A DNA stretch of 60,422 nt from positions 1 to 60,422 of the IMG/VR virus record IMGVR_UViG_3300046517_000933; one strand, given 5' to 3'. Position numbers and translations under genes: made by a program. The number at the start of each line of letters is the position of its first letter. The first letter of the stretch is position 1. The notes beneath the pieces were generated by a model. The model saw only the letters and a program-made list of their open reading frames with translations, did not search any database and was not told where the DNA came from. The DNA is from a virus. Positions 9,317 to 59,520 of this stretch are shown one piece after another.

Positions 9317-10258
9317 TTACTTCTTCGGGAAATACTTGTCGGCGTAGTTACTCACATCTGACGGCACGGCGGCTGCTGCACTCGCACTCGCGTTCACATA
9401 ATCGGTCGGGGAGACGCCGCCGAGGCGTTGCTTCACGAACTCGTCGCGCTTCGTCTCGTAATCGCCTCCGAAGGGGTTTTTGCTTGCATAGGGGTGAAGC
9501 GAATCGAACTCCTTATTGAGCCGGTCGACCGTCAGTGTGCGTCGGCCGCGCTCCACCGATTCGGGAATCGGCTTGGCGGGCCTATCCGCCGCGCCTGTCA
9601 GTCCTAGCTCTTTCTTCTTACGCGCTTCGTCGATGTTGGCACCTTCGCGCAGGCCGATCATTTCTTTTTCTTTGCCTGTTTCGGCGCCGATACGTTCGTG
9701 GAGTAACTTCTCGGCGTCGCCAGTGCGCTCCTTGCGCAAGGTCTCCTGTTGCTGAAAGCCGGCCAACTGACGGTCGGATTGCGCCTTCTGACCCGTTAGC
9801 TTCTCGTATTCCTGAACGTGCCGATTATAGAGCATCGTGCCAAGTTTCTGGTCTTCAGGTGACAGTTGACTCCACTGGTCCGACGCCATGTACTGTTCCA
9901 TCGCGCCAATTCGCTGTTTCATCTCAGTGGCGGGGTCTTGAGGGGATGCTCCCGGCTGCGGTTGCCCCTGCCCTTGTGACATTGGGCCGCTACTTGGCTG
10001 ACCGCCAAATGCCTGCCCGAATCCTTGATGCGCCTGATGCGCTAATGTTCCGATTTGCATGAAGCCTTCGGCGACCTCCTTGCCGCCGTGCTTCGTCAGC
10101 CACTCCTGCCCTCCCTTTGTTATGGCGGCCTGCGGGTGCGACTGGTACATCTGAAATACCATCTGGTCGTGCGCCATTTCCATCTGACGCTTTTCCTGCG
10201 CGTGCTCGCCCAGCGCCCGAGCGCCCATACCTAGAATCATGCCAAGCGCTGCGGCCAT
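9317..10258 (-). CDS. Putative ejection (internal virion) protein
   Basis: A 313-residue protein beginning with a small-residue helix (MAAALGMILGMGARALGEHA), then Gln-, Met- and His-rich helices, a Gly/Gln-rich low-complexity linker (residues 85-110) and a strongly charged helical region (ERTGDAEKLLHERIGAETGKEKEM). The C terminus is Ala-rich. It overlaps the previous gene by TAATG and lies directly upstream of the large ejection protein. Composition and order support an internal virion protein. No enzymatic motif seen. Confidence 0.65.
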   Translation of the reverse strand: MAAALGMILGMGARALGEHAQEKRQMEMAHDQMVFQMYQSHPQAAITKGGQEWLTKHGGKEVAEGFMQIGTLAHQAHQGFGQAFGGQPSSGPMSQGQGQPQPGASPQDPATEMKQRIGAMEQYMASDQWSQLSPEDQKLGTMLYNRHVQEYEKLTGQKAQSDRQLAGFQQQETLRKERTGDAEKLLHERIGAETGKEKEMIGLREGANIDEARKKKELGLTGAADRPAKPIPESVERGRRTLTVDRLNKEFDSLHPYASKNPFGGDYETKRDEFVKQRLGGVSPTDYVNASASAAAAVPSDVSNYADKYFPKK

Positions 10259-10818
10259 TACGGCACTCCTGCCGACATCGGGAGCATACTACCAAAGCCT
10301 TGGCCGGCTTGACCGCCAGCAAACAATCCTTGGTTGAAGAAGTCCCAAAAGCTCGGCGTCTGGGTGCCAGTCTGGGTGTTTTGCAGACCGCCCGCTCCGC
10401 TAATTGCTCCTGTGGCACGTCCCGCCTGACCCTCCAGTTGCGGAATGGCATTACCGATAAAGGCCTGCGTTGCCTCGGCGGGAATCGCCCCCGTGCGCGC
10501 GGAATCGGCACCTTGCTGCTGCGACAGAATGGTCTGAGCGAACGGCGTACCAGCGAGTCCGCTACGCGCCAACTGTTCGCGCATCTGGGTTTCGCTTTGG
10601 CTTGAGCTTTGGCGGCTTGCGTCCACGGCGGCGTTTATCGACGGGATGTTCGCGTTCACTCCCCCCGTCCTCAACGCTTCCGCTGTCTGGCCCGAGTACG
10701 CCGACAGGGCCGGCTTCGCCATCCTCCATTGCTGCTGGCCAATCTTCCCCAAAACGTCGGCCCACGGACTGTTCGTGCTCTGGCTGCTCGTCGATGATTT
10801 TCCGCCGCCTGCGCCCAT
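10258..10818 (-). CDS. Putative ejection (internal virion) protein
   Basis: A 186-residue protein rich in Gly, Ser, Gln, Ala and Thr. The frame is open to 10863, but the ATG at 10818 (MGAGGGKSSTSSQ) has AGAGG eight bases upstream and is preferred. Residues 50-110 are helical (VDASRQSSSQSETQMREQLARSGL) and the tail is Gly- and Phe-rich. First of three consecutive proteins with ejection-type composition. The upstream GNAT-like frame continues 257 bases into this gene. Confidence 0.65.
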   Translation of the reverse strand: MGAGGGKSSTSSQSTNSPWADVLGKIGQQQWRMAKPALSAYSGQTAEALRTGGVNANIPSINAAVDASRQSSSQSETQMREQLARSGLAGTPFAQTILSQQQGADSARTGAIPAEATQAFIGNAIPQLEGQAGRATGAISGAGGLQNTQTGTQTPSFWDFFNQGLFAGGQAGQGFGSMLPMSAGVP

Positions 10819-11269
10819 CTCTGGAACCTCTATCCATCCAATATATGCTACTTGCATCGCCATCGAACAAGTGGGGCACTTCGCCCTGATGGACCCAGCC
10901 CAATCTTTCCATCTCCGGTCTGAGCCGCGGCTGCTTGGTATTCGCCATTAGCACGGGGAAATGGGCCAGCCCTAATTCGAGCGATTCATTGACGTGGGCG
11001 AGCATCGCCTTGGACTTGCGTTTATCCTCGCGTACCCAGATACCCCAGAACGCCCCCGACAGGTCGGGGACGAACCAGGTCGCTATCCAGATGCCCGACA
11101 CGTCAATCTCGAAGTAGAGCTTCACCGTGCGCGCCGACCAGAACAGAATTTCGGTCAGGTTGCGCAGCGGCTTGGCAAAGAGATTGGAGAACTCAAGCGG
11201 CTTGGAGTTGAGGTCCAAGTACCACTTGAGAATCAGCATCTCGTGGCGGTCGCGGTCGTACTCGATCAT
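10562..11269 (-). CDS. GNAT-fold-like protein (T7 gp13 type position), with overlapping C-terminal extension
   Basis: The first ~148 residues look like a compact GNAT-type fold: strand-rich VKLYFEIDVSGIWIATWFV, helix and strand pairs, and a terminal RLGWVHQGEVPHLFDGDASSIYWM. Phages often place a small GNAT-like protein (T7 gp13 class) before the ejection proteins, as here. The frame stays open for another ~85 residues inside the next gene. That part is very basic and repetitive (DGRRRRKII, KRRRGRKPPKLKPK) and looks like a shadow of the downstream coding frame, although no earlier stop exists. The acetyl-CoA P-loop is not clear, so enzymatic activity is doubtful. Confidence 0.65.
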   Translation of the reverse strand: MIEYDRDRHEMLILKWYLDLNSKPLEFSNLFAKPLRNLTEILFWSARTVKLYFEIDVSGIWIATWFVPDLSGAFWGIWVREDKRKSKAMLAHVNESLELGLAHFPVLMANTKQPRLRPEMERLGWVHQGEVPHLFDGDASSIYWMDRGSRDGRRRRKIIDEQPEHEQSVGRRFGEDWPAAMEDGEAGPVGVLGPDSGSVEDGGSEREHPVDKRRRGRKPPKLKPKRNPDARTVGA

Positions 11270-16458: not shown

Positions 16459-17035
16459 TCTTAAGCTCCTTCATGCGGGCAATGAGCCGGTCATGCGCTT
16501 CCTTGAACGCAGTCAGGTCGCGATGCTGGAGCACCAGCAGGCATTCTGCGAGGTCCAGCACGGCGCTATCGGCCTCGGGCTGGACGACGGTGGTGTCGGA
16601 GGTGCCGGCGAGTACCGGCGTCAACAGCGTATAGATGACGGTCAGGGTCGTGGGGTTCGTCTCAATGCCTGGATGCACGATGAGGAGGTCACGCCCGCAC
16701 TGACAGAATGAACGGGGGCTATCTGCAATGGCGAAGGGCCAGTTGAGGTCGATTTGCTGGAGATTCTCGTAGGAAATGGAATCAAGGTCGCGCCCAGAGG
16801 CGTCACGAATACCTTGGATCCGCACCGCAGCAGAAAGAAATCCCGACATCGAGTAAATAACCGTGCGAGGCTGGAGAACGAGCGATGCGGTTCCGGTTTC
16901 TTCATCGAGCGAACCATTGACCACCTGCTGCGAATAAGAGAGTAGATTAATGACCTGCGGCTGCGTGGTAGCGCCGAAGTTGGGGTCGCGGGCGCGACTC
17001 GCCGCCTGCGCCGACATGACGCCCAAGTTAGTCAT
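16445..17035 (-). CDS. Tail-module structural protein, unknown
   Basis: A 196-residue protein starting at the ATG overlapping the terminase nuclease stop (ATGA). It has an Ala- and Asn-rich N terminus, a beta-rich centre (TASLVLQPRTVIYSMSGFLSAAVRI) and a Cys-containing loop (SFCQCGRDLLIVHPGIE), ending in a charged helix (HDRLIARMKELKSERR). Lies between packaging and tail genes. Likely a connector component; no family recognised. Confidence 0.6.
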   Translation of the reverse strand: MTNLGVMSAQAASRARDPNFGATTQPQVINLLSYSQQVVNGSLDEETGTASLVLQPRTVIYSMSGFLSAAVRIQGIRDASGRDLDSISYENLQQIDLNWPFAIADSPRSFCQCGRDLLIVHPGIETNPTTLTVIYTLLTPVLAGTSDTTVVQPEADSAVLDLAECLLVLQHRDLTAFKEAHDRLIARMKELKSERR

Positions 17036-17676
17036 CTTAGCCCCGTCAATTCCGCGTGTTGCGCCAACCTTAAATCCACCTGCGACGGGTCCATGCCCGT
17101 CCTTTCCAAATACCGTTTTAATTGCGCCCTGTCCATGAGACGCAGATGCTGGGGCAGCGAGGAGGGCAATAACCATACCGCCCGGGCGAGCGCGTCCATG
17201 ATGTCGCGGTAGTTGCCACCGGGGAACGCCTGCCACTCGTTCTTCAGGTCGGCGGTCTCGTGCTCGACGCTGGAGCGCAGCAGCCGCCCCTGGGCGACGA
17301 TGGGCTGCAGCACGGTCTCGATGAAGGTAATCTTGTCCGTCCGCTCGGCCACGCCCCTGAGATTCCAGTGGACGTTGCGGTCGCGGGCTTCCTTCTTGAC
17401 GATCTGGTGGAACTGGAGCTGGGGACCGCTAGCGTCCATCCCGAAAATGGCGGGTTTCCATTTGAAATGCGTCTCGAACATCTTCGCCATCAACTGATCG
17501 GGCGGCAGCCGCTTGGCCCACGCCTCAAGGATGAAGATACGTTCGAGGTCGTCCTGCCCGACCACACAAATCGAGGCGCGCGAGCGCGTGCCCGCATGGG
17601 TGAGCAGCGTGTTGATGCCGCCGGCCGGGTCGCAGAACGCGGTCTTGTAGAGCTTATTCGCCGCTACCGTCGGCAT
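17032..17676 (-). CDS. Terminase large subunit, nuclease half (separate gene)
   Basis: A 214-residue protein matching the C-terminal RNase H-like nuclease domain of large terminases. Candidate metal ligands are D16 in CDPAGG, D81 in FGMDASG and D158/D161 in RDIMDALA, in the right order and spacing for a terminase nuclease. It would cut the concatemer before and after packaging. The ATPase half is a different gene (17827-19113), with a 58-residue frame between them. The ATG at 17676 lies 23 bases inside that small frame. Confidence 0.8.
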   Translation of the reverse strand: MPTVAANKLYKTAFCDPAGGINTLLTHAGTRSRASICVVGQDDLERIFILEAWAKRLPPDQLMAKMFETHFKWKPAIFGMDASGPQLQFHQIVKKEARDRNVHWNLRGVAERTDKITFIETVLQPIVAQGRLLRSSVEHETADLKNEWQAFPGGNYRDIMDALARAVWLLPSSLPQHLRLMDRAQLKRYLERTGMDPSQVDLRLAQHAELTGLR

Positions 17677-17830
17677 TTAACGCTCGCTGAATCTCACGCA
17701 CTCGCTGATCGCAGAAGTTTTGCAGGGCGATTGTGCTATGTGGTGGGAGCATAGCCAGAAACTCGAAATCGCGCCCCGCTTGCCCGAGCGCTTCCCTTAG
17801 TCGCTTAATGCGTTCCACGTCAGATGTCAT
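17654..17830 (-). CDS. Small ORF between the two terminase halves
   Basis: A 58-residue frame starting at ATG in an ATGA overlap with the ATPase stop and overlapping the nuclease gene by 23 bases. It is charged and helical (SDVERIKRLREALGQAG, FCDQRVREIQRAL), with no similarity to homing endonucleases. It could be a bridging peptide, a small-terminase-like factor or the relic of a linker. Tight overlap on both sides argues that it is translated. Confidence 0.65.
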   Translation of the reverse strand: MTSDVERIKRLREALGQAGRDFEFLAMLPPHSTIALQNFCDQRVREIQRALNADGSGE

Positions 17831-19113
17831 TGTTCCCCCTCCTGCTTCGGCACCTTCTCGGGATACTTCTCGTGCATGAAGTCGTAGAACTCCTGGCTCA
17901 TCCCCGTCGGCGGCTTGCTCCTGACCTTCGCGTTATCCCGCGTATAGGCCATGCCGCCCATCACGAACCCCAGGTTGCGCGCAATCTGTTCCTGCCGGAT
18001 GGCGATACGCTCGTCCATCCTTGAGTCCTCGAACATCAGCACGTCGTGGTCCTCGATGCGCACCACATTATATGAGCGGAGGTCGTCCCAATTCAGGGCC
18101 GTATAGCCGCGGTTGGACGGCTTGTTCATGTACCAGCAGGTCCATTCCTGCGGGTCCGTGGAGAGGCGCAGCTTCTCGATATTCTCCATCGAGTTCTGCT
18201 CGGGCCACAGCGGGCGCTCCCGCTTGGTCACCTCGTCCATCTCGATGATGGACCGGATCATGACCTCGACGGTCGGCTCGGACTTCCACTCCACGTAAAT
18301 ATCGTTGTCGGATGGCCAGTGCGTGCCGATACCGATAAAGATGCCGGTGCCCTTGCTCTTGTCGTAGAAGCGCGTTCTGGCGGCCCTGCGCCACTTGCGG
18401 GCGCGTTCCATCGTCGGCGGACTCAGCGATGCTTCCTGAGCAGCAATATCGTCGGCGATGATGAGATCGAAATACTTTCCGATGAATCCAGACTTGATAC
18501 CCACCGCGCCAACAGTCGCTTCAGCCCAGATGGCGTTCCTTGGTACCTCAATCTGGGCGTCGGACCAGCGCTTGGCGTCCTTGGGATTCTCCCAGACGAC
18601 TTGCGGCCAGCACCACCAGAGCAATTCGTTGCTTTCGAGATGAGCACGCACATAGGACAGATTCTCTTTGCTCTTGAGTTCGTTCTCGCTCGCCAGCAGC
18701 GTCCTTGAATTGACCCCATGCATCCCGGGGAAATAGATATTGCTCGCGGCCGGCTGGACAATTAAGTGAAGCGGTATCGACCGGCTCGCCACGGTCGTCT
18801 TGAGATGCGTCATGGGGAGCATCAGCAACTTGCTACGGCCGTTGCTGAAATTGGTCAGGAAAGGGCAGACCTCATCCCGATGGAATCGGCCCTTGCCGAG
18901 CAGGTCGTTGCCGAGAATCCACCGGCTGAAGAACCAGAGTTCCTTCTCGCTCTTCTTCTTGAGCCAGAGCCGGAACTCCTCATCATCTAACGGGAACTCC
19001 TCTCCGGCCTCAGAGAGCCCGTCTCTAAGCTCCTGGAGGGTGATCTCGCGCGGTGGGTGCCTTTCGACCGCCCGGCCCTTGCGCGGCCTACCTCTGCGTC
19101 GGGATTCGGGCAT
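17827..19113 (-). CDS. Terminase large subunit, ATPase half (separate gene)
   Basis: A 428-residue packaging ATPase. A Walker A-like LPMTHLKTT lies at residues 99-107, Walker B LIIADD at 217-222, and a coupling-type GIFIGIGTHW segment about 30 residues after that. An Arg-rich N terminus (SRRRGRPRKGR) precedes helices. The frame is open to 19170, but that start would overlap the upstream gene by 83 bases; the ATG at 19113 overlaps by 26. The nuclease domain is encoded separately downstream, so the holoenzyme must be made from two chains or by an unseen joining event. Confidence 0.82.
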   Translation of the reverse strand: MPESRRRGRPRKGRAVERHPPREITLQELRDGLSEAGEEFPLDDEEFRLWLKKKSEKELWFFSRWILGNDLLGKGRFHRDEVCPFLTNFSNGRSKLLMLPMTHLKTTVASRSIPLHLIVQPAASNIYFPGMHGVNSRTLLASENELKSKENLSYVRAHLESNELLWWCWPQVVWENPKDAKRWSDAQIEVPRNAIWAEATVGAVGIKSGFIGKYFDLIIADDIAAQEASLSPPTMERARKWRRAARTRFYDKSKGTGIFIGIGTHWPSDNDIYVEWKSEPTVEVMIRSIIEMDEVTKRERPLWPEQNSMENIEKLRLSTDPQEWTCWYMNKPSNRGYTALNWDDLRSYNVVRIEDHDVLMFEDSRMDERIAIRQEQIARNLGFVMGGMAYTRDNAKVRSKPPTGMSQEFYDFMHEKYPEKVPKQEGEQ

Positions 19114-19318
19114 CTGTGCGGTGAGTCTCCATCTTCGCGGGGCACCAGTGATGTCCACAGGGTTCGGCATCGCAAATACAGGTATATTCGCTCCGCTCCT
19201 GCCCGCGCGGCCGATGCGGATAGCAGCACCAGTCGCAACGCCCCGAGCATAAATCGAGAATTTTGAAGGATTTCATTATATTCTGCAAACGCGCCAGCGC
19301 TTCGAGGCCATTCATCAC
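19088..19318 (-). CDS. Small Cys-rich protein, probable zinc binder
   Basis: A 76-residue protein with CSGRCDWCC, then CICDAEPCGHHWC, giving about nine Cys and two adjacent His. This is a dense metal-binding pattern, while the first 18 residues are a plain helix. ATGA overlap with the upstream gene; 26-base overlap with the terminase ATPase gene. Unknown function, packaging neighbourhood. Confidence 0.65.
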   Translation of the reverse strand: MMNGLEALARLQNIMKSFKILDLCSGRCDWCCYPHRPRGQERSEYTCICDAEPCGHHWCPAKMETHRTDARIPTQR

Positions 19319-32664: not shown

Positions 32665-32883
32665 TTAGCGCCTGCCAAAATCGAGGCCGTAGTGGCCCAT
32701 CCCGCCCACAAAACCAATACAGTTCAAAAAAGCGATAAGCACCAGCAGGCCGATGAGCAACCGGATCAGCATATAAACCGGCGCGGGCAGGGAAATGAAC
32801 GGAGCCAACACGCTCTCAAGAATGTAGAGCACGATGACCGCGACGATCACCCACACGATTAGATAAATGAGACATTCAAGCAT
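32665..32883 (-). CDS. Second holin/antiholin-like membrane protein
   Basis: A 72-residue hydrophobic protein with two membrane helices (LIYLIVWVIVAVIVLYIL and MLIRLLIGLLVLIAFLNCIGF) joined by a Pro-rich turn. It directly precedes the other holin-like gene. AAGGAG is seven bases before the ATG, and a folded RNA leader lies just upstream, so this gene is the likely point of lysis control. Confidence 0.7.
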   Translation of the reverse strand: MLECLIYLIVWVIVAVIVLYILESVLAPFISLPAPVYMLIRLLIGLLVLIAFLNCIGFVGGMGHYGLDFGRR

Positions 32884-32900
32884 CGGAATCTCCTTGGGTA

Positions 32901-32965
32901 GCCCGCGCTCGGCCTCGGCCAGTGGGGGAGTACCGGCCTCAAATGGGTATTGCTACCGCGCGGGC
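32901..32965 (-). ncRNA. Structured RNA leader of the holin gene (three-way junction)
   Basis: On the minus strand the RNA can fold as P1 GCCCGCGC/GCGCGGGC (8 bp), P2 GGTA-GCAA-TACC (a GNRA tetraloop hairpin) and P3 GGCCGGT-ACTCCCCC-ACTGGCC (7 bp, one G-T pair). The P3 loop CUCC can pair with the GGAG of the SD at 32890-32895. The GGTAGC that makes P2 can alternatively pair with GCTACC just after P1. That gives two exclusive states, one of which hides the SD. No known riboswitch class was recognised. Confidence 0.62.
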
Positions 32966-32971
32966 ATAACC

Positions 32972-33568
32972 TTACTGCTTGACAACGCTATCCAACGTCG
33001 GGCCAAAGCTCACCACGTCCTGCTCCGCAGGGTCGATGGTCGTGGTGATGACGATCGAGCCGGTCGCCGCGGTGCCGTCGGCATTGGTGCCCGAGACGGT
33101 AACCGTGGTCACGCCCGCCTGACCCTTCACGGAGGTCCAGCCGCAGGTCGCGCCGGTCGGGTCAACGGTCGGGTCGAGCACGCCGAAGGTCGCCACGTCC
33201 GCCGCGTAGGTCGGAACCATTGCGCCGAGAGGAGCCGGGGTAACGCCATCCGCCTCTAGCGGGTTGGCGTGGATGACGGCCTTGTCGTCGTCCATGAGGG
33301 TGCCCGCGCCGCTTTTGAAACTGTGTACTGCCATTGTCGTATCTCCTTGTTGCGGAGTTATTGAATCCAATGTGGGTTGAAAACTGGCTACATCCGTATC
33401 CGTATTGCCGTCGATGATCTGCTGGACTTCGGCTTCTAATTGGCCGAGTTCCAGCACTTCGATGCTGGTTCCCCTGACCAGCGCCCTAAGCAGGCGGGTG
33501 TGCGCTTGAAGCTGTGCGAGAATTTGCCGCAGCACGCCAAGTTCAAATTGGGGTATTGATTCCGCCAT
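32972..33568 (-). CDS. Ig-like surface protein with a second in-frame start
   Basis: A 198-residue protein: helical N-terminal 70 residues (LGVLRQILAQLQAHTRLLRALVRGT) then a beta-rich, Thr/Ala/Gly-rich domain with Ig-like strands (GQAGVTTVTVSGTNADGTAATGSIVITTTID). An AAGGAG lies seven bases before an in-frame ATG at 33334 (MAVHSFKSGAGT), so a 120-residue short form is likely too. Both parts end with the same motif, SFQPTLDSI and SFGPTLDSV. Possibly a virion decoration protein; no exact family assigned. Confidence 0.6.
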   Translation of the reverse strand: MAESIPQFELGVLRQILAQLQAHTRLLRALVRGTSIEVLELGQLEAEVQQIIDGNTDTDVASFQPTLDSITPQQGDTTMAVHSFKSGAGTLMDDDKAVIHANPLEADGVTPAPLGAMVPTYAADVATFGVLDPTVDPTGATCGWTSVKGQAGVTTVTVSGTNADGTAATGSIVITTTIDPAEQDVVSFGPTLDSVVKQ

Positions 33569-48732: not shown

Positions 48733-49635
48733 TTAGAATCCTACGCTCGAACCGTAAGTCCAGCGCCAGTCACCGATTCGCATCGCAAACCGCTGATAGA
48801 CGGTATGGTCCGACGCCTCGATAAAGGGGTCGTCAAAGGTGCGCGCGCGCGGGCGGTCACGCCACATGAACTCAACGTCCGACTCCATCATCGGTGCGGA
48901 GAGAGTCCAGTCCTGGGTGCGGGTCATGTAGCGCACCACGCCCCAAGTCAGGTCGTCCTCGATGATCGAGTTGGTATCGTTGTTGGCGCTTCCGCTCTGA
49001 CCTGACGAACCAAACAGCACTCGCGCAACGTACCGATTCGCTGGATGAATCATCACGCGAGCCGCCGCCATGTTCTGCGGGCGGCTGCGCTCGTCGTTCA
49101 GCAGATCGAAGTTAACCTGACCCGCCTGTACCGCGGTCTGCGACAGGGTGACATCAGGCGAAGGCCGGTTAGACTGTGTGGTGCCGTCCAAATCGACGTG
49201 CGCGGTATTATAGAGAGTCGCATTGTCGTAGCCGGTCGCCACCGAGAACGAGTTATTCGGCCAAGTCGCGAAGGCCTGCACTTCCTGACGGAAACGATTG
49301 CTGCGGCCCATGTCGGTCCACATCTCGCCCATCACGCCGTACTTGTCGTCGCGCCACATTTCCCAGGTCACGCTGAACAACTGCCCGTAGGGAGTCGCAG
49401 TGACTTGGAAGTTCGGCCCCGGAATCGGCAGGTCGGGTACGAACTGCTGGCCTTCCGGCTTGTACGGCTGCTGCCCCATGCCCGAAATCTTCGATGAGAT
49501 ATACGGGTTGGTTTCCATGTCCACGCTCTTGATCCAGCGTGGCCAAAGACGGGGATATTCTTTCCCCACATTGACCAAATAAGTTTGAAACTTTGTGCCT
49601 AGCAGGTCGCTAAAGGCTGAGGTTACGGCCGGCAT
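48733..49635 (-). CDS. Major capsid protein (Mu gpT / HK97-fold type)
   Basis: A 300-residue protein of the gpT-like HK97-fold class. The N-terminal arm (FSDLLGTKFQTYLVNVGKEYPRLW) is followed by an E-loop-like region, TWEMWRDDKYGVMGEMWTDMGRSN, then the YNTAHVDLDGTTQSNRP signature typical of gpT-like capsids. The P-domain helix contains VNFDLLNDERSRPQNMAAARVMIHPANRYVARVL. The C terminus is WRWTYGSSVGF. It would build the icosahedral shell. The allele in copy 1 is cut by the window start. Confidence 0.85.
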   Translation of the reverse strand: MPAVTSAFSDLLGTKFQTYLVNVGKEYPRLWPRWIKSVDMETNPYISSKISGMGQQPYKPEGQQFVPDLPIPGPNFQVTATPYGQLFSVTWEMWRDDKYGVMGEMWTDMGRSNRFRQEVQAFATWPNNSFSVATGYDNATLYNTAHVDLDGTTQSNRPSPDVTLSQTAVQAGQVNFDLLNDERSRPQNMAAARVMIHPANRYVARVLFGSSGQSGSANNDTNSIIEDDLTWGVVRYMTRTQDWTLSAPMMESDVEFMWRDRPRARTFDDPFIEASDHTVYQRFAMRIGDWRWTYGSSVGF

Positions 49636-49645
49636 CTAGTTCTCC

Positions 49646-50140
49646 TTAACTGTAAATCGTCTGGCTCGTCAGGATGCGAACCTGTACGCGGCCGTTGATT
49701 AGGCTCTTTTGATCGGGGTCGTAGCCCATGAGCTGGAACACCGCGTTGCTGGTGCCCGTGCCCATGTAGTAATTGCCGCTCGTGCTATCGAGCAGGAGCT
49801 GGTAGCTGGTGCCGATGGTGAAATCGGAGGGCTTGCCGGTGCCGAGCGCCGCCGTGCCGGAGGTCGTAGTCGTATCGACGCTGACTTCAAACAGCACGTT
49901 CTGGTACGGCAGCACCACCGGAGCATCGGCAGCGGTCACGCCAGTCGCTTTCGCTAGCGCGATGCCGGCGATGGTCGGCGCGGTAACGGAGCTAATGATC
50001 GCCATTCCGCCCGAGGAAAATTTCAACGGCGCCCCGACGATGTAACTCTGGGATGCCGCCTCGGCATAGTGGTAGGTGTAAGCATCCGACCAGCCACCCG
50101 GAGTCGGTCCCTGCGCAATCGGCTGAATGTTCGACGCCAT
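49646..50140 (-). CDS. Putative head decoration protein, allele 2
   Basis: Counterpart of 278-772, also 164 residues. A handful of conservative changes (for example AFTYHY to AYTYHY and PFQEVLFEV to PYQNVLFEV); the C terminus is almost the same. Overlaps the gene before it by one base. Confidence 0.5.
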   Translation of the reverse strand: MASNIQPIAQGPTPGGWSDAYTYHYAEAASQSYIVGAPLKFSSGGMAIISSVTAPTIAGIALAKATGVTAADAPVVLPYQNVLFEVSVDTTTTSGTAALGTGKPSDFTIGTSYQLLLDSTSGNYYMGTGTSNAVFQLMGYDPDQKSLINGRVQVRILTSQTIYS

Positions 50141-50871
50141 TAGCGAAATCTCCTTGCATCAAATCCCGGTTGAAGCGTCCGTCCATCCGGCCCAGGCATC
50201 GAGCCGCGGCGCAAATCGCCTTCCGTGAAATTCGTTCGATTAGGTTGATAACTGAATGTTTCGGACTGAAGAGGGCCGGCGCCACGAGCGACACGAGGGT
50301 CCGCGTCGTTCAGGGTGTGCATCGTATTCGCCATGCCCGCGCGTCCAAGGCGCTCACTGGCATAGACGACCGATTGTTCCTCGATAGCCATCTGATTGTT
50401 GAGTTTGCGACGGTCGGCATCTTCCATCGCTAGCTGCGCTTCTTCGGTCTGCTCGAACAGGACGGTATCCCCCACACCGCGAAGGCTGGTCGGCCCCGCG
50501 CTGTCGTTGCCGATTAGATTCGCCGCGACCGGATTATCTTTGCCCTGCACCGGCTTGAATCCTAGACGCTTCGCGGTCGCGTGCATCTGGCGGATATTGG
50601 CCTTCGCGTTATCGGGATAGCCATCGGCCACCGTCAGGAAGACGTAATTCTTGTCTTCCTCGCGGTTCTCGATCGGGATGAATCCCGCCGCATCGAGTTG
50701 GCCCAAAATCTCATTGTCTCGTCGCGCCATCTTGGCCGCATCGATTGGTTCGATGCCGTCGCGCGCCTGACGTGTCTCAATTTCTTCCTGCAATTCGTCG
50801 GCGACCTTGCGCTCGGCTTCGTCGCGCTCGTGGCCCGCAGGCAAATCCATCGGCTTTTCGCCTTTCGGCAT
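50140..50871 (-). CDS. Conserved head-module protein, allele 2
   Basis: Counterpart of 772-1503 with the same 243-residue length and start in the TAATG overlap. Substitutions are few, mainly Arg/Lys swaps and EEARRTMED to EEAQLAMED. Confirms the start choice, because the upstream TTG of copy 1 is CTG here. Confidence 0.7.
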   Translation of the reverse strand: MPKGEKPMDLPAGHERDEAERKVADELQEEIETRQARDGIEPIDAAKMARRDNEILGQLDAAGFIPIENREEDKNYVFLTVADGYPDNAKANIRQMHATAKRLGFKPVQGKDNPVAANLIGNDSAGPTSLRGVGDTVLFEQTEEAQLAMEDADRRKLNNQMAIEEQSVVYASERLGRAGMANTMHTLNDADPRVARGAGPLQSETFSYQPNRTNFTEGDLRRGSMPGPDGRTLQPGFDARRFR

Positions 50872-51752
50872 TAAACCCAGCTCCCCTTGTTTTTATCTGC
50901 ACGCTGGCCTTGGCGACCCTGTTCATCAGTCCAGTCGCGGTCGAGGCCGAGGCTTCCGTTGGTCTCGTCTTCCAGTACTTCCATCTGCTTGCGCACGGCA
51001 ACGAACTCTTTCAAACCGCCGTTGAACTGGAGTTTGCGCAATTCTTCATCATCGCTGCGGCCGCCGACGGCGCGCTGCTTGACGCGAAACTCCTTCTTCC
51101 AATCGCCACCGAGCACCTGAGCCAGATTCTCCGGTTCGCGCTCCTCGGGCTCGATGTCTACGCGACCGCCGCTAGGCAGCAATGCCGGGTCAGGCTCGCG
51201 AGACTTCCTAATAGCTTCTTCGCGGTCTGCCGCCTGAATGTCTGAGATATTCTCGCCGACTACGATGTCGTGAGCGGCCTTGTAGTGCTCGGGCGTGACC
51301 ATCACGCCGGGATTGTTCGCCTGAAACTGTTCGACCTTTTCGTCGATGAGCTTTTTATATTTGCCGGAGTAGTAGGGGAGTTTGTCCGCCGCCATGCGCG
51401 AGACGGACCCGAAGGCCGCGCCACCCGCTGAAGTAATGCGCTGGATTTCCTGATCGGCCCGTTGCCGGTCGGCCGCGCGTTGCTGCTTGAGCAACTTCGA
51501 GACTAGAGCCTTGTCACCCGCCTCGATGGCATTGGCGATGTCGTCCTCGTTCACCTCGGCAATCTGCGCGGCGCGAGGTGCGGGCGCCTGAACTTCACGA
51601 CGAATCGATCCGCCGCTGATTTGGTCAGCGAACGGCTTCATCAATTCGGGTAACGCCGTTTTAAGGCCTGCGGTGACTGATGCGGAGACTAGACCGGCGA
51701 GCTTTTCGTCCTGCGTACTCTGTGCCGTATCGTTAGGCTTTTCGTCGGGCAT
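50871..51752 (-). CDS. Putative scaffold protein, allele 2
   Basis: Counterpart of 1503-2384, also 293 residues. Ends match closely, but residues about 62-160 and 205-215 diverge (for example IAEVNEDDIANAIEAGDKAL against IADVSEESIAEAMAANDTKE) while length is exactly kept. This looks like strain-level diversification under constraint. Confidence 0.6.
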   Translation of the reverse strand: MPDEKPNDTAQSTQDEKLAGLVSASVTAGLKTALPELMKPFADQISGGSIRREVQAPAPRAAQIAEVNEDDIANAIEAGDKALVSKLLKQQRAADRQRADQEIQRITSAGGAAFGSVSRMAADKLPYYSGKYKKLIDEKVEQFQANNPGVMVTPEHYKAAHDIVVGENISDIQAADREEAIRKSREPDPALLPSGGRVDIEPEEREPENLAQVLGGDWKKEFRVKQRAVGGRSDDEELRKLQFNGGLKEFVAVRKQMEVLEDETNGSLGLDRDWTDEQGRQGQRADKNKGSWV

Positions 51753-51761
51753 AGTTAATGC

Positions 51762-51789
51762 CTTATATCGAACAGCGTTCTACTGTCAA
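51762..51789 (-). promoter_or_regulatory. Scaffold promoter, copy 2
   Basis: TTGACA (51784-51789) and TATAAG (51762-51767), unchanged from copy 1, although the neighbouring small gene differs. Same short distance to the scaffold ATG. Confidence 0.75.
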
Positions 51790-51795
51790 GCACCG

Positions 51796-52005
51796 TCATT
51801 TTACCCTGACCTGCTGCCCGAACCAATCGCGCATTCTGCGGAGGGCGGTGGCGGCTCCTTGAAGTTTCAAAACTTCTTCATAATTCGGCGCTTTGATACA
51901 CAGTTCTTGAATATGAGTGATTTCATCTTCAAGCCACCCGCGGAGCGAAGTCAGAACGGCGGTATCTTCTTTACAGGCGAAAATCAGACGGTCGGCGGAG
52001 GCCAT
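51796..52005 (-). CDS. Small helical head-module protein, allele 2
   Basis: Counterpart of 2428-2637, 69 residues. Residues 1-22 are the same, residues 23-60 are largely different (GWLEDEITHIQELCIKAPNY), and the LQGAA core and QQV end are kept. Conserved length and ends favour a structural role with a variable face. Confidence 0.7.
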   Translation of the reverse strand: MASADRLIFACKEDTAVLTSLRGWLEDEITHIQELCIKAPNYEEVLKLQGAATALRRMRDWFGQQVRVK

Positions 52006-53870
52006 CAGTGAATCGGCGGTTGGCCTTGCGGCGGGCCACCGGGACCAGCGCCGTTAGGCTGCTGCATCTGACTCATCATGCCGTTTAGCTGGCCGGGCAC
52101 CTGCTCCATGCCAAGCTGCTGCATCATCGGCTGGATGTCGTCGAGGTCCACTTGCAGGCTGCGAACGTCGCTAATCTGGTCGAAGGTCTTGAGAATCTTG
52201 CCGAAGAACTTGTTGATGGCCTTCTCGGCCTGCTTCGCCACCTTGTCGGCGCCGGGGAACGGCGGCTGGGCGATGAATTGCGCGAGCTGGGTCATGGCCT
52301 GGAAGTAAACCGGCCAAATCTGCGTCGCCAGCATGACCATGTTCTGCCGGTCGGACTCACGGTTGACGCTGACGCTGGAGGCGGTGAGTTGAATATCGAG
52401 CGCATCGGTCAATTCGACCTTGCTGTGCTTGAACAGGTCGACCACCAGCCCCGCCTTATCGTCACCGAGGATTTCCTTGAGCTTCTTGACGACATCCTTG
52501 TTGCCGGCGCGGACCTGCTCCTGTAGCCGGAATAGACAGTGCATCACGACCTGCGAACCGAAGTTCCGCATATTGTTGAACGGATGCGTGAAGCGCCGAT
52601 TGGCCTGCTGCATCATCGAGAGCATCGAAATGCCAGGGGTGCGGCTCGACGAACGAATCGGGGCGCTGATTTGCGTTGTCCCTACGCGCTCGCGACCCAT
52701 CGCCGTGACCACGGACTCGGCCTGAATCGCCGTTCCGTTCACTTCGCCCATGTCCAGAACCTTGATTTCGCCCTGCGGACCCTCATCGTTGATGAGGTAC
52801 TTGCCCGGATACGCCGCGGTGGTCTCCTGCATCCCCGTGCTCGGCCCTTGGTACATCTTCGTGTTGGCGAGCATCATGTTCCAGATGTGGTTGTTGTGAA
52901 TTTCGGTCACTTCGCGCTCGAACGGGATCATCATTTCGAGCACGCCGAGGCCGAACGCCGTGTGGGCGCGGTCCTGATAGCACTCCAGCACGAACGGCCG
53001 CGAATCGTAGCGGTTATACATGACCTTCAGGATGTTCCCCGAAGTCATGTTCCAGATAACCTCTAAATCCTCCTCGATGCCGTCGTCGTCGATGTCGAAA
53101 TAGATGAAAGTGTCGCCGATTGTGACTGGGGGCTTGGTATCAAGCTGCCCGCCGCTGACACCAGCGGTGCGAAGGCGATCGGCGCGAATGACGCTCGACG
53201 TATCGGGCGCTGCGGCATCGTCAACCGTCCAATTATTGAGGCGGGCGCGGAGATTCAGCTCATCCTTGCCCATCCACATCCGCATCGTGGCAAATTCACA
53301 GGTCTGGATGTTCTTGGTGGCGTTGGCCGGGATGATGAAGTCCTCGGGCGCGAGGCAATGAATCTTTGGCCCAAACGTCACGACCTCGCGCACGTCGGTT
53401 TTGCGCACCGTCTTGGTGTAGGGGATGTAGCCGACGACCATGCCAAGCTGAACTTGGTCGATAAGGCCTTCTTTTACCCCAGGCTCGAAGTTCCAAAAGC
53501 CACTCTCGACGCCATGATTGACCAAATCCTGTACGGCATCGGCGGCGTCGTCGAAATCGCCCTTCCGCGAGCGGATGGTGAGGGGCGGCTTGACCTGAAA
53601 TATGAGGTCTTCGGCCTGAGAGATGACCGTATCGCAGGCCATCGCGCCGATTGTGACCTCGATTACAGGCGCATTCTCGAATGGTAGCCAGCGGGCGTGG
53701 TCGGGCGGCGTCCCCTGATACATACGGATCGCCGTGCGGCACATATTCTCCCAGCCGGCGCGGGCCTGAAGGGCGCTTTTGTGCTTGTTCTGGAGGCGTT
53801 CCTTGAGGCGGGCACGCTGCTCCATGTTGATTTTGAGCGGCTTGCCCTCCCCGATGGATATGGTGCGCAT
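52005..53870 (-). CDS. Portal protein (P22-like), allele 2
   Basis: Counterpart of 2637-4502, 621 residues, with only scattered changes (NREELNLR to GKDELNLR, DDDGINED to DDDGIEED). The start is two bases from the upstream gene's stop, because the tRNA-like insert is missing here. Confidence 0.88.
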   Translation of the reverse strand: MRTISIGEGKPLKINMEQRARLKERLQNKHKSALQARAGWENMCRTAIRMYQGTPPDHARWLPFENAPVIEVTIGAMACDTVISQAEDLIFQVKPPLTIRSRKGDFDDAADAVQDLVNHGVESGFWNFEPGVKEGLIDQVQLGMVVGYIPYTKTVRKTDVREVVTFGPKIHCLAPEDFIIPANATKNIQTCEFATMRMWMGKDELNLRARLNNWTVDDAAAPDTSSVIRADRLRTAGVSGGQLDTKPPVTIGDTFIYFDIDDDGIEEDLEVIWNMTSGNILKVMYNRYDSRPFVLECYQDRAHTAFGLGVLEMMIPFEREVTEIHNNHIWNMMLANTKMYQGPSTGMQETTAAYPGKYLINDEGPQGEIKVLDMGEVNGTAIQAESVVTAMGRERVGTTQISAPIRSSSRTPGISMLSMMQQANRRFTHPFNNMRNFGSQVVMHCLFRLQEQVRAGNKDVVKKLKEILGDDKAGLVVDLFKHSKVELTDALDIQLTASSVSVNRESDRQNMVMLATQIWPVYFQAMTQLAQFIAQPPFPGADKVAKQAEKAINKFFGKILKTFDQISDVRSLQVDLDDIQPMMQQLGMEQVPGQLNGMMSQMQQPNGAGPGGPPQGQPPIH

Positions 53871-54248
53871 TTAAGTACCCCCGAGGACAGGGATACCCAG
53901 AGTCACATTGTCGGTGGACGACGGATTATTGTACGTGACGTTAAGGTTCGGCGTGCCCTGCGCGAGGTTCGCGCCCATGATGAGCACGAAGCCGCCCGCA
54001 TTCATCGGCAGCGGCGTATTCTGGTTGATTGTAAGATTGGCCGGCTGGTCGTTGGTGACGCAGATGGTCCCCAGCGTCGGCATAATCGCCGCCTGAATCG
54101 GATGATACGTCACGGTGCCGCTGTCAGGCGTGGCAATTATCGTCATTCCCGTGGATGCTTCGCCGACGATATAGCGGCGGACGATAGGCATATCTGCGAG
54201 CGGGATGCCGTCCAACTCGAAACTGACGGTCATGCGAAGTTCGGGCAT
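53871..54248 (-). CDS. Small beta-rich structural protein, allele 2
   Basis: Counterpart of 4609-4986, 125 residues. Differences cluster around residues 30-45 (EASTGMTIIATPDSG) and near the C terminus; the Asn-rich core is the same. Confidence 0.65.
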   Translation of the reverse strand: MPELRMTVSFELDGIPLADMPIVRRYIVGEASTGMTIIATPDSGTVTYHPIQAAIMPTLGTICVTNDQPANLTINQNTPLPMNAGGFVLIMGANLAQGTPNLNVTYNNPSSTDNVTLGIPVLGGT

Positions 54249-54578
54249 TTAGACCAAATCGATGAGCAATTCCGAGCCAATATCGAATTGGGTAACGACA
54301 ACCGGCCCTGACCATTGAGTATCCGGACGCTGTTCAGTTGGAGCCGCGTCCGCGCCCTGCCAAACTTGGTTGTACACGTCAACCGCAGTGCCGCCGACGG
54401 GTTGACTCTGAATGACCACCCGTCCATTCGCCACGCCGCCAGCGCCCACTACGAGCACAATCCGCCTCGGGATGAGGTCATAGGTGCAAAGCGTATAGGG
54501 CAGAGTATTCGCTGAGGACGCAGCATAGACCAGCGTCCACGTCCGCCCGTTCGTAACGACGGTGACTCCAGCGGCCAT
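54249..54578 (-). CDS. Small beta-rich structural protein, allele 2
   Basis: Counterpart of 4987-5316, 109 residues. Residues 36-55 differ most (RRIVLVVGAGGVANGRVV), the rest is conserved. Confidence 0.65.
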   Translation of the reverse strand: MAAGVTVVTNGRTWTLVYAASSANTLPYTLCTYDLIPRRIVLVVGAGGVANGRVVIQSQPVGGTAVDVYNQVWQGADAAPTEQRPDTQWSGPVVVTQFDIGSELLIDLV

Positions 54579-54776
54579 TTAGAAACTCGGCTTGGGCATC
54601 CGCGACGGGTTCTTCTGCATCGAGCCGGAGCCAAACCCCTTTTTATTGCCGGGGCCGAAGCCGTCGATGCCGACGCCGGAGCCTTTCTTGCCGCTGGCGC
54701 GGTCGCCGTCGCGTAGATTCTGCTCACCCGACCGAATACGTGCGATTTCTTCTGGACCGTTTGAACCGCGAGGCAT
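54579..54776 (-). CDS. Small Gly/Lys-rich head-operon protein, copy 2
   Basis: Same 65-residue protein as 5317-5514, with identical residues; only two silent base changes are seen near its 3' end. The transition from divergent to identical sequence happens inside this gene. Confidence 0.6.
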   Translation of the reverse strand: MPRGSNGPEEIARIRSGEQNLRDGDRASGKKGSGVGIDGFGPGNKKGFGSGSMQKNPSRMPKPSF

Positions 54777-54816
54777 AATCGTTACTCCGTAGCACTCGAA
54801 CAGCGTTTGATTTAGC

Positions 54817-54844
54817 CATATATCAAACATCGTGCTACTGTCAA
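54817..54844 (-). promoter_or_regulatory. Portal-operon promoter, copy 2
   Basis: Identical to 5555-5582, TTGACA-N16-TATATG on the minus strand, with the same flanking inverted repeat. Confidence 0.75.
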
Positions 54845-54848
54845 ATTC

Positions 54849-56078
54849 ATGCCATCAGCCCTGGTAATTGATTCCGGCCTGTTTCCGGATGTGGCGCGCC
54901 ATCTGAGCAAGGCCTACGACGTGCGCTACTTCTCCAGTTGGACGAATGCCTTCCCGCGCTCACAGGAGCAGGCGGTCGGCGTCGGGATACCCGGCATCGA
55001 GCGGGTCAACGAGCCGCTTCGCGAGATGATCACCAAGCCGCCCGACCTCGTGGTGGTGCCGGACCTCTACCTGAACGATTATGAGATGGCCGCGCGCAAT
55101 CTAGGCATCCCAATCATCGGCGCGAGCGATGCTAACCAGCTCGAAACTGACCGCTGGAAGCTCAAGGAATTTCTCGTTGAACACGACCTGGATGTCATCA
55201 GAACGGTCGAAATCCAAGGCATCGATCACGTCAAGGATTACGTCGAAGAACACCCTGAAACCTACGTCAAGGTGAGCGTGTTCCGCGGCGATATGGAAAC
55301 CCGCAAGGCGCAGGACTGGCTCACCGAATACAACCATCTCAAGAATCGCCTCGGGCCGTTGGGCGACAAGGTTCGCTTCGTGGTCGAGGATGCCATTCCA
55401 GACGCCCTCGAAATCGGTATCGATTGCTGGTGGTGCGATGATCGGATGGTCGAGCCGTTCGTGGTCGGTGCCGAGACTAAAGACGCCCGCTACTGGGGCT
55501 ATGTTTGCGACAGCGTAAAGAAGCTGCCGAAGGAAACCCAACGCATTATTAAGGCCTTGGGCGAGTATTTCAGCGAGCACGACTATCGCGGGTTTTTCTC
55601 CAACGAGATGCGAATCCTGCCGAACGGGCAGACGTTCTTTACCGATGCGACCTGCCGCGTGCCGTCGCCCCCGGGGGGCGTGATGATGGCGGCGTGTAAA
55701 AATTACCCGACGTTAATGTCCGAACTTTCCAAGGGGGTTTCCGTCGCCCCCGAGTTCGCCGGCGAATGGCTATTCGAGTCGGTATTCAAGTCCGAGTGGG
55801 TGCTGAAGCATTATTTGCAGGTCGATGTACCCAATCTAGACGGCTACACCTTCCACAATTACTGCATGATCGACGGCAAGGTCTGGATTATCCCACACGA
55901 ATCAGAGATGGCCGAATTTGGCTCGGCGCTCGGCTGGGGTGGACTAAAAGAAGGGTTCGATATGGCGACTGAGAATTGCGAGGCCGCTCACGCGAATCGG
56001 TTGGACTGCGATAAGGGGACGCTCGAAGATATTGAGGACGAAATCAAGGAAGCGGCGAAGCTGGGGTTTGTGCCCTAG
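54849..56078 (+). CDS. ATP-grasp ligase-like protein, copy 2
   Basis: Identical in translation to 5587-6816 over all 409 residues. See that entry for motifs. Again the only plus-strand gene in the late block. Confidence 0.72.
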   Translation: MPSALVIDSGLFPDVARHLSKAYDVRYFSSWTNAFPRSQEQAVGVGIPGIERVNEPLREMITKPPDLVVVPDLYLNDYEMAARNLGIPIIGASDANQLETDRWKLKEFLVEHDLDVIRTVEIQGIDHVKDYVEEHPETYVKVSVFRGDMETRKAQDWLTEYNHLKNRLGPLGDKVRFVVEDAIPDALEIGIDCWWCDDRMVEPFVVGAETKDARYWGYVCDSVKKLPKETQRIIKALGEYFSEHDYRGFFSNEMRILPNGQTFFTDATCRVPSPPGGVMMAACKNYPTLMSELSKGVSVAPEFAGEWLFESVFKSEWVLKHYLQVDVPNLDGYTFHNYCMIDGKVWIIPHESEMAEFGSALGWGGLKEGFDMATENCEAAHANRLDCDKGTLEDIEDEIKEAAKLGFVP

Positions 56079-56105
56079 CCGATGTCGTCACTCCCGAAAT
56101 CTTCT

Positions 56106-56318
56106 TCACCCCACAGAACCTTTAACATAATGAGAATGGTCACGTCGTGGTCTCTTGCATCGGTAATAGATAAGTCTTTCGCTCTCGGGCGTCAGTGCGA
56201 TATTCAGGATAGTCTCCAGGCGGTTAATAGCAAGGTGCTGCTCGCCACGATTCAGGCAGATGATGCCCGGCTCGATGGAGATGGCTAGCGCCAGAATTTC
56301 AGGGGTTAGCTGGAGCAT
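56106..56318 (-). CDS. Small protein after ejection operon, copy 2
   Basis: Identical to 6844-7056. Because the two copies are the same, conservation gives no help in deciding whether it is a real gene. Confidence 0.45.
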   Translation of the reverse strand: MLQLTPEILALAISIEPGIICLNRGEQHLAINRLETILNIALTPESERLIYYRCKRPRRDHSHYVKGSVG

Positions 56319-58578
56319 CTTGACCCTGCATGGCGGTGCCCATCTTCCGCTGTAGGCCAGCCGCCACTTCCGCCATCAATGCGTCCGAGGTCATGCTGCC
56401 AATCTTTTTCGCCGCTCCGTAAGCGTTCGGATTCGTCGTCGCTTCCCAGAACGCTTTGGCCGTCTGGGGATTCTTGAGTGCGCCCTTTAGCGCCGTTTGC
56501 ATCTGAATATGCGCCCACGCGATACCAGCGGCCCCCAGGCCTGCCGCGGCAAACATCGATGGATGCCCCATCATAAACGTGGCGGCGAGAATTTCGGGAT
56601 ACCAGGCCAGCCCGCGCTTGGCCCGTTGCACAAACATCCCCGGCTTGCCTTCGGTCGTACCCGTAACGAGTGCATCGATCGGCGCATTCTCGGGATGGCG
56701 CTTCATAAAATCCATCACGACTTGCGCGCCTTCCTGCGGCGTCTTGGCGAGTCGGGCCTGCTTCGCCATCGTTTCGCCGTAAGGACCGAGATTCTTAGCT
56801 TCCTTTTGCGCCCATTGTACCGCTTCGCGCGAACTTTCATCACGGATGTCGGACAATCGGCTGGTCATCGCCTGCCGATACTGGTCGCGCATCTCGGGCG
56901 AAGTGTTGATGATGTTTTCGGCCTTCACCAGCTTATCGTCGAGGTGAATCCAGTTCTTCGGGTCGGCCAGCGGCGTGCCCGGATATAGTTGATTGAGGAC
57001 GGCTTTCTGGTCCTCCTGCTTGAGGACGCCAGGGGCCCTCTCAACGCCGTTCTTCAGCACCCAATCGGCATAATTGGTGCGGAGTGTCCCTTTTTCTTCA
57101 TCGGTCGCACCATGCCAAATCTGCTGGAATCGCTGGGGCGAGCCAAAGACTTCGCCGGCCGCATCGGTCGGCTCGAACTCGCCCGCAATCTTGCGACGGA
57201 ACTGGGCGTCGAAGGTACGTTTGTACGACCCGTAGCGCTGATTCAGTGCCTTCAACTTATCGGTATCGACCAGACCTGAGCCTTCCAAAGAACTGTCGAT
57301 GCCGTCGATCACTTGGAATGCGGCGGCCTTATCACGAGAGCTGGCGGAACCACGAGTTAGCGCGAGTGCTTCGCTGCGAAGTGTCAGGTATCGTTCGACG
57401 GTTGGATTGGTCCCTTCTTTCGGTGGTTTAATCCCCAGCTTCAGCAGGCTGTTCTCGGCAGATTTTCGCATCTCCGGTGTTTTGATGTCGCCCAGCACTC
57501 CATGCATGTAGCTGGTATCATCAGGGAATTGGTTCTCCGTTTTAGACGAAAGCCCTTTCGCCTTGGTCATGAGCGATTGCAATTCACGGCCGGGATTATG
57601 CCCGGTCTCCTGACCGAACTTCGCGACTGACTCTACGGAATTAGCCAGATTCTTAGTCGCGTCCGGCTCCAGAACCTCTTTTTTGACGGGGCCATATAGA
57701 TTCTCGTATTGCTTACCGAGTTCGTTGCTCGCCCGATGAATCGGGTTGAAAACGGCATTGCCCCAATCCTGTTGACGCTCCACGGTCGATGCGCTGGGGA
57801 TAGCCGCATCGGCCGCTTCTGTAGCGAAATGCTGTTCGGGAGGCATCGCGCGAGCCTGCGCGCCCTGCTCGACTGAACGCCCAAGCATCCCCTGAATGCC
57901 TTGCGCGCGAGCCTCAGGCGCGAGTTGGGTCGCGACCTGCTGACGTGCCTTAGCGGTACTAGTCTTGGCGGCCGCTTGTGAGGCGGCCTGCTGTTCGGCG
58001 AATTTACCCGCCTGCTCGGTAGCCTGCGTTTTGGCGGCTTGCGCGCCCTCGATTAGAGGCGTCGCGCCGACCGCCCCCTTTAGGATTTTGCCGACCGGCA
58101 AGGCCTCGAAGAGCGCACCCGTGACGGCATTTACCGCCTCCTCGGATGCGATATGCCGCGCGGAGAGGTCAGGATTGCGACCGAAGAATTTCTTGTTGAT
58201 ATAGGCCGAACCGACATCCGCCGCCGCTTGACCAACGCCAGAACCAACCGCAGCGCCCACAGGTCCGCCAACGGCACCGCCAGCAGCGGCGCCGGCTATA
58301 GCACCGGCTGCGGGGGCGATATATTGCTCTCCAAGTTCGACGGCGCGCGGCAGTGGCTTCTGGAGTTCAGCACCACCGCCGTGCATCGGCTGAGGATGCA
58401 GCTTGCCCGCCCGATTCAGAATCTCGCCAGCGACGCCCATCTTGAACTTCGGGTCGCGCTTGAGGAATCCGGGATCGCTGCGTTCGAGACCCGCGATTAC
58501 GTTGTCGTACTTCTGCGGCTCGGGCAGCTTGTCGAAGCCGGGATCGGCAAGCATCTGCTGCATCGAGTCGTTAGGCAT
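56299..58578 (-). CDS. Large DNA ejection protein, copy 2
   Basis: Identical to 7037-9316, 759 residues with the glycine zipper near the N terminus. Confidence 0.75.
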   Translation of the reverse strand: MPNDSMQQMLADPGFDKLPEPQKYDNVIAGLERSDPGFLKRDPKFKMGVAGEILNRAGKLHPQPMHGGGAELQKPLPRAVELGEQYIAPAAGAIAGAAAGGAVGGPVGAAVGSGVGQAAADVGSAYINKKFFGRNPDLSARHIASEEAVNAVTGALFEALPVGKILKGAVGATPLIEGAQAAKTQATEQAGKFAEQQAASQAAAKTSTAKARQQVATQLAPEARAQGIQGMLGRSVEQGAQARAMPPEQHFATEAADAAIPSASTVERQQDWGNAVFNPIHRASNELGKQYENLYGPVKKEVLEPDATKNLANSVESVAKFGQETGHNPGRELQSLMTKAKGLSSKTENQFPDDTSYMHGVLGDIKTPEMRKSAENSLLKLGIKPPKEGTNPTVERYLTLRSEALALTRGSASSRDKAAAFQVIDGIDSSLEGSGLVDTDKLKALNQRYGSYKRTFDAQFRRKIAGEFEPTDAAGEVFGSPQRFQQIWHGATDEEKGTLRTNYADWVLKNGVERAPGVLKQEDQKAVLNQLYPGTPLADPKNWIHLDDKLVKAENIINTSPEMRDQYRQAMTSRLSDIRDESSREAVQWAQKEAKNLGPYGETMAKQARLAKTPQEGAQVVMDFMKRHPENAPIDALVTGTTEGKPGMFVQRAKRGLAWYPEILAATFMMGHPSMFAAAGLGAAGIAWAHIQMQTALKGALKNPQTAKAFWEATTNPNAYGAAKKIGSMTSDALMAEVAAGLQRKMGTAMQGQDAPANP

Positions 58579-59520
58579 TTACTTCTTCGGGAAATACTTG
58601 TCGGCGTAGTTACTCACATCTGACGGCACGGCGGCTGCTGCACTCGCACTCGCGTTCACATAATCGGTCGGGGAGACGCCGCCGAGGCGTTGCTTCACGA
58701 ACTCGTCGCGCTTCGTCTCGTAATCGCCTCCGAAGGGGTTTTTGCTTGCATAGGGGTGAAGCGAATCGAACTCCTTATTGAGCCGGTCGACCGTCAGTGT
58801 GCGTCGGCCGCGCTCCACCGATTCGGGAATCGGCTTGGCGGGCCTATCCGCCGCGCCTGTCAGTCCTAGCTCTTTCTTCTTACGCGCTTCGTCGATGTTG
58901 GCACCTTCGCGCAGGCCGATCATTTCTTTTTCTTTGCCTGTTTCGGCGCCGATACGTTCGTGGAGTAACTTCTCGGCGTCGCCAGTGCGCTCCTTGCGCA
59001 AGGTCTCCTGTTGCTGAAAGCCGGCCAACTGACGGTCGGATTGCGCCTTCTGACCCGTTAGCTTCTCGTATTCCTGAACGTGCCGATTATAGAGCATCGT
59101 GCCAAGTTTCTGGTCTTCAGGTGACAGTTGACTCCACTGGTCCGACGCCATGTACTGTTCCATCGCGCCAATTCGCTGTTTCATCTCAGTGGCGGGGTCT
59201 TGAGGGGATGCTCCCGGCTGCGGTTGCCCCTGCCCTTGTGACATTGGGCCGCTACTTGGCTGACCGCCAAATGCCTGCCCGAATCCTTGATGCGCCTGAT
59301 GCGCTAATGTTCCGATTTGCATGAAGCCTTCGGCGACCTCCTTGCCGCCGTGCTTCGTCAGCCACTCCTGCCCTCCCTTTGTTATGGCGGCCTGCGGGTG
59401 CGACTGGTACATCTGAAATACCATCTGGTCGTGCGCCATTTCCATCTGACGCTTTTCCTGCGCGTGCTCGCCCAGCGCCCGAGCGCCCATACCTAGAATC
59501 ATGCCAAGCGCTGCGGCCAT
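58579..59520 (-). CDS. Putative ejection protein (313 residues), copy 2
   Basis: Identical to 9317-10258. Confidence 0.65.
   Translation of the reverse strand: MAAALGMILGMGARALGEHAQEKRQMEMAHDQMVFQMYQSHPQAAITKGGQEWLTKHGGKEVAEGFMQIGTLAHQAHQGFGQAFGGQPSSGPMSQGQGQPQPGASPQDPATEMKQRIGAMEQYMASDQWSQLSPEDQKLGTMLYNRHVQEYEKLTGQKAQSDRQLAGFQQQETLRKERTGDAEKLLHERIGAETGKEKEMIGLREGANIDEARKKKELGLTGAADRPAKPIPESVERGRRTLTVDRLNKEFDSLHPYASKNPFGGDYETKRDEFVKQRLGGVSPTDYVNASASAAAAVPSDVSNYADKYFPKK

Follow-up and report, generated by a model that had tools for sequence, protein, structure and literature searches.

Structured RNAs at operon junctions and lysis genes

In the Rhodobacter puf operon and at REP elements, intercistronic stem-loops stabilise the upstream mRNA and lead to unequal expression within an operon. 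The leader of the phage lambda S gene contains an upstream RNA stem-loop, and cidA of Staphylococcus aureus is a holin-like gene. The timing of lysis is usually explained by the behaviour of the holin protein. For the lambda S holin leader, dual translational starts, S107 and S105, are described (Blasi et al. 1989, as cited in PMC12642591). Methylophage Melnitz carries a glutamine riboswitch that was speculated to affect lysis (PMC9004378), and the cidA 5′UTR contains an RNA thermosensor tested with reporters (PMC6443170). Here we describe an RNA fold in front of a candidate holin gene in the window, i.e. the whole stretch of 60,422 nt analysed.

The leader and its neighbouring genes

The preliminary description gave the leader in plus-strand coordinates, but all genes in this region run on the minus strand. 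There the leader (32971-32884) lies between the genes of a 198-aa protein and a 72-aa membrane protein, in a gap of 88 nt between the TAA of the former (32974-32972) and the ATG of the latter (32883-32881). The pieces described earlier, namely the 8-bp closing stem, the GNRA-capped hairpin, the 7-bp hairpin, the Shine-Dalgarno (SD) sequence and the mini-ORF, are all present on this strand. A search with the 72-aa protein recovered one close relative (93 % identical) and two at 78 % (L003, L004). The close relative, locus L002, belongs to the related phage contig IMGVR_UViG_3300047321_000419 (G002, 54,443 b) and is the only other example of the leader found. The features are as follows.

32972..33568, minus: upstream 198-aa gene; its stop codon directly precedes the possible P0 (sequence)
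32897..32971, minus: possible outer helix P0, GGU 32971-32969 with ACC 32899-32897 (predicted fold, weak)
32901..32965, minus: core, 65-nt three-way junction RNA of P1, P2 and P3 (MFE and centroid; covariation with L002; RNA model R1)
32958..32965, minus: P1 5′ strand GCCCGCGC, 8 bp, partner 32901-32908 (8/8 pairs kept in L002)
32953..32967, minus: mini-ORF ATG CCC GCG CGG TAG (sequence; GTG CCC GGC CGG TAG in L002)
32946..32957, minus: P2 hairpin GGUA-GCAA-UACC, 4 bp with a GNRA tetraloop (GGUA-GCAA-UGCC in L002)
32917..32938, minus: P3 hairpin GGCCGGU-ACUCCCCC-ACUGGCC, 7 bp (GGCUCGUA-CUCCCCC-UACGAGCC in L002)
32901..32908, minus: P1 3′ strand GCGCGGGC (8/8 pairs kept in L002)
32890..32895, minus: SD AAGGAG of the 72-aa gene (sequence; invariant in L002)
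32665..32883, minus: 72-aa two-segment membrane protein, candidate holin (two strong hydrophobic segments)

The junction linkers J1/2, J2/3 and J3/1 measure 0, 7 and 8 nt, and the CUCC within the P3 loop ACUCCCCC is complementary to the SD. L002 shows UAGG/CCUA at the position of P0, which lends this helix weak support.

The 72-aa gene had been called a holin gene. Its hydrophobic segments and lysis-like neighbours (downstream lie the genes of a membrane protein of 107 aa and of a SleB-type endolysin, Hydrolase_2) agree with that name, but the protein has no family match in Pfam, PHROGs or NCBIfam, and a holin is at most a plausible identification. As in the lambda S leader, RNA structure stands just before the start of a lysis gene. 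It differs from lambda S in the N-terminus of the 72-aa protein, MLECLIYLIVW, where a second in-frame Met, and with it a dual start, is missing.

In L002 the second half of the upstream 198-aa gene (MAVHSF...) stands as a gene of its own, of 120 aa. The split near 33345 (minus) is due to a single in-frame stop: where the window reads CAA CAA GGA, L002 has CAA TAA GGA. The two halves share a motif at their C-termini (PTLDSITxQ / PTLDSVxKQ). Among other homologues, the gene of L103 is likewise fused in frame and that of L106 is split by TGA.

The two genes that flank the element were followed into other phages. Homologues of the 72-aa gene have their SD straight after the previous gene in L003 and L004, overlap the previous gene in L100, and lack the element in these loci and in L078; L101 has a different small hairpin near the SD. 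As the element is absent at 72-aa homologues in four other contexts, it is not needed by this gene. In L105/L106 a strong stem-loop, there ending in a U-rich tail, likewise comes directly after a distant homologue of the upstream gene, in L103 the homologue is directly followed by the next gene, and in other phages there are other downstream structures or none. Judged from these comparisons, the element is tied to the gene junction directly after the upstream stop and is not required by the 72-aa gene. The hairpin of L101 (1462-1499), in the leader of a homologous 72-aa-type gene, has a loop UACUCC that could pair with GGAGUA of the SD, a complementarity not above chance in a simple test.

Several other features of the two contigs were noticed. 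The ends of the window are long repeats, 1-4521 against 49369-53887 at 90 % identity and 4608-11160 against 53870-60422 at 98 %, the latter without differences beyond about 5500. The ends of G002 overlap in a similar way (1-3884 against 49722-53608, 90.7 %). Either the genome is circular, with variation among strains, and both assemblies wrap around it, or there is a true duplication of the head module. L002 contains a QueC-like (7-deazaguanine) gene and a neighbour (7572-8770), both missing from the window at that place. The terminase large subunit of the window appears as two adjacent frames, 17827-19170 and 17032-17676 (minus), that match successive parts of phrog_38.

Conservation of the fold by compensatory change

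The three-way junction drawn in the preliminary description is both the MFE and the centroid structure of the 65-mer in RNAfold (-31.8 kcal/mol, z -2.46), and 4 of 200 shuffled sequences reached an equally good energy. The corresponding values for the whole 89-mer were -36.5, z -1.98 and 7 of 200. Taken alone, the energy is modest (z about -2 to -2.5) and by itself weak for GC-rich DNA. When flanks were added, the fold held in seven of the eight contexts tested with a P1 probability of 0.80-1.0; in the exception (80 nt downstream, little upstream) the best structure lacks P1 and P2 and lies 5.2 kcal/mol lower. The core of L002, GCCCGGCC-GGUAGCAAUGCC-CAUAAC-GGCUCGUACUCCCCCUACGAGCC-AGCCCGA-GGCCGGGC, adopts the same fold as MFE and centroid, at -33.5 kcal/mol and z -3.99.

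It is mainly the covariation with L002, not the energy, that argues for structure beyond chance. Despite nine substitutions in the helices, all 19 of 19 pairs are kept between the window and L002, four of them changed on both sides and none broken. P1 carries two double-sided swaps (C-G to G-C and G-C to C-G) in a gap-free alignment, P2 one U-A to U-G change, and P3 two double changes (C-G to U-A and G-U to C-G) together with one extra base pair. When nine substitutions were placed randomly in the helices, all pairs stayed intact in 29 of 1,000,000 trials; for P1 alone the pairs stayed intact in 0.8 %. The double changes of P3 require a 1-nt insertion beside the loop, which two structure-blind pairwise alignments placed there. 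In an ungapped alignment (MAFFT, covariance model) covariation is limited to the two P1 pairs, and the RNA model alignment leaves the 1-nt slip of P3 unrepaired, so the covariation of P3 rests on the pairwise alignments. The comparison of homologous leaders proposed earlier thus found compensation and no broken pair in the one homologue, with two P1 pairs covarying independently of the 1-nt gap. Compensatory helix change, the mark of a cis-acting structured RNA and here of an orphan motif, is likewise seen against this one homologue.

As a genome-wide control, the regions of the window and G002 that align at <97 % identity were cut into 3,380 segments of 80 columns each, and an RNAalifold consensus was computed for each. 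The leader ranks first, with four double changes, none broken and a consensus energy of -35.3. Ten other segments (overlapping ones included) have four double changes, none of them below -14.8 kcal/mol. Because the leader tops this control, we take the fold, with high confidence, as real and selected. Its upkeep by matched mutations suggests that it is probably useful to the phage, and this part of the earlier proposal, a three-way-junction RNA ahead of the gene that opens the lysis-like cassette, is supported as an element under selection.

The second-ranked segment against G002 (1469-1545; four double changes, -14.8) lies at the junction of two genes, and its repeat copy at 50845-50916 also has four double changes.

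Searches for known families and further copies

The preliminary description recognised no known riboswitch class, and Rfam 15 agrees, with no gathering-level match in the whole window. Relaxing the E-value up to 10 for the window and L002 gave only sub-threshold, chance-level matches, and the leader had no Rfam match to a self-cleaving ribozyme family. Pattern scans with the core motif found 57 stretches in viral contigs, with the fold only in the known relative L002, which was also the sole result of a tighter scan; among 84,980 genomes the motif pattern occurred at 16 loci, none with the fold. The RNA model R1 detected only the window and L002 among 14 related viral records. It detected nothing in 398 genomes of one phylum, a weak result as the phylum may not be that of the host. 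BLAST of the leader against annotated phages gave chance matches only, and the window holds no second copy. Two sequences carry the element, and from these we infer its function. It would add an orphan motif absent from Rfam.

Alternative explanations

The leader had been proposed to switch between two exclusive states, the second formed by GGUAGC and GCUACC. This claim does not hold: the alternative state lies +9.8 kcal/mol above the main fold with a pair probability of about 0. In L002 GCUACC is replaced by GCUCCU, which interrupts the helix, and the state costs +15.2 (run with the coding sequence of the window downstream). A 6-nt complementarity of this kind is present in 23 % of shuffled leaders. 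A two-state riboswitch with folds of comparable energy was therefore rejected on energy and on the comparison with L002. We found no evidence of ligand or protein sensing by the leader, and we consider it very unlikely that it represents a new small three-way-junction RNA class which senses a metabolite or phage protein, opens the SD of the lysis gene and times lysis. If this were true, the late mRNA of the phage would itself carry the RNA sensor that sets the moment of lysis.

A related reading, on the whole unlikely, is a regulated gate on translation, in which CUCC of the P3 loop and GGAG of the SD would form a pseudoknot; its opening, by a ligand, by a protein or through the way the junction is folded, would time lysis. 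CUCC and GGAG are both unchanged in L002 while the stem of P3 turned over, the pairing is compatible with the fold (freeing both sides costs 0 to 0.3 kcal/mol), and the junction lengths, by analogy with three-way junction families, would let P3 lie alongside P1 near the SD. However, with both sides invariant this 4-bp pairing shows no covariation, complementarity to the SD region is not above that of shuffled sequence in any of six leaders, and there is neither an alternative fold close in energy nor a match to an Rfam class. Translation of the leader itself was another of the earlier suggestions; in such a device, translating the four-codon ORF would open P1 and P2. The ORF does persist in L002, with ATG exchanged for GTG and both versions ending in TAG; yet the whole ORF, from start to stop, falls within P1 and P2 or next to them, and its persistence is expected as a by-product. 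An SD-like AAGG precedes the start by only 2-4 nt, and codon 3 changes from GCG to GGC. The mini-ORF is probably incidental, and we give a leader-peptide device hardly any credence.

The stable, conserved fold at a gene junction, in which P1 and P2 abut with no linker and could stack as a 12-bp helix, would suit a site bound or cut by a host or phage RNA-binding protein or RNase, at which late mRNA is processed. Against this quite unlikely reading, 12 bp are short for RNase III and the window has no second copy; we know of no phage RNA-binding partner for the leader. There is only a small chance that the element attenuates transcription, or weakly terminates it, between the structural and the lysis genes, as suggested by the GC-rich stem at an operon junction and by the terminator-like stem with U-rich tail that L105/L106 have after their homologue of the upstream gene. 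In both phages P1 lacks a following U-run, and a scan for terminators was negative here. An intrinsic terminator was rejected on the same grounds, as the stem is followed by UACCCAAGGAG. Chance structure in GC-rich DNA, or selection on DNA (a cruciform) instead of RNA, could draw on the modest z-scores of the window taken alone and on the opposite strand, which folds about as well. Such an origin is highly improbable given the four double-sided compensations with none broken and the first rank among the 3,380 segments. In addition, both phages have a single G-U pair, located in P3 in the window but in P2 in L002. On the opposite strand either one would become a mismatch, so that only RNA of the coding strand can form them, which favours that RNA over a DNA cruciform.

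Proposed role

The reading that we favour, tentatively and with somewhat less than even confidence, is a constitutive intercistronic RNA structure that sets how strongly the upstream gene is expressed relative to the lysis genes. The selected cis-acting structure would be part of the minus-strand late transcript, located after the stop codon of a late-operon gene and before the lysis cassette begins. It would form during RNA synthesis and stand in the gap as a barrier to ribosomes and to 3′ exonucleases, which would allow the expression levels of the upstream gene and of the lysis genes to differ; the 72-aa gene would have its own, independent translation start just past the closing stem. Such an element would act on the mRNA and set relative dosage with no need for a ligand. 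Within the gap the stem is not followed by a U-tract, and neither a terminator nor a promoter was called.

The structure itself is conserved by compensatory change, and a regulatory role of the leader is likely. Against the constitutive reading, the element is carried by only two sequences, and an ordinary stem would stabilise mRNA with neither a three-way junction nor a GNRA loop, nor a ACUCCCCC loop that stays unchanged. At this divergence, the invariance of these features is a weak hint of a more specific function. With a conserved RNA fold between its late genes and its lysis cassette, a phage would have a compact means to control the dosage of lysis genes at the RNA level.

Among the described systems, the cidA thermosensor is likewise a structure in a 5′UTR, where it controls translation; it has no sequence relation to the leader, for which no temperature logic is suggested. 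With the Melnitz riboswitch the leader shares the nature of a structured phage RNA with a proposed link to lysis timing, but the former belongs to a known riboswitch family while the latter has no Rfam match. Unlike the single stems of puf and REP, the leader is a three-way junction with a GNRA hairpin; like them, it is a stable RNA structure between two genes of an operon, in which the fold rather than the sequence is kept.
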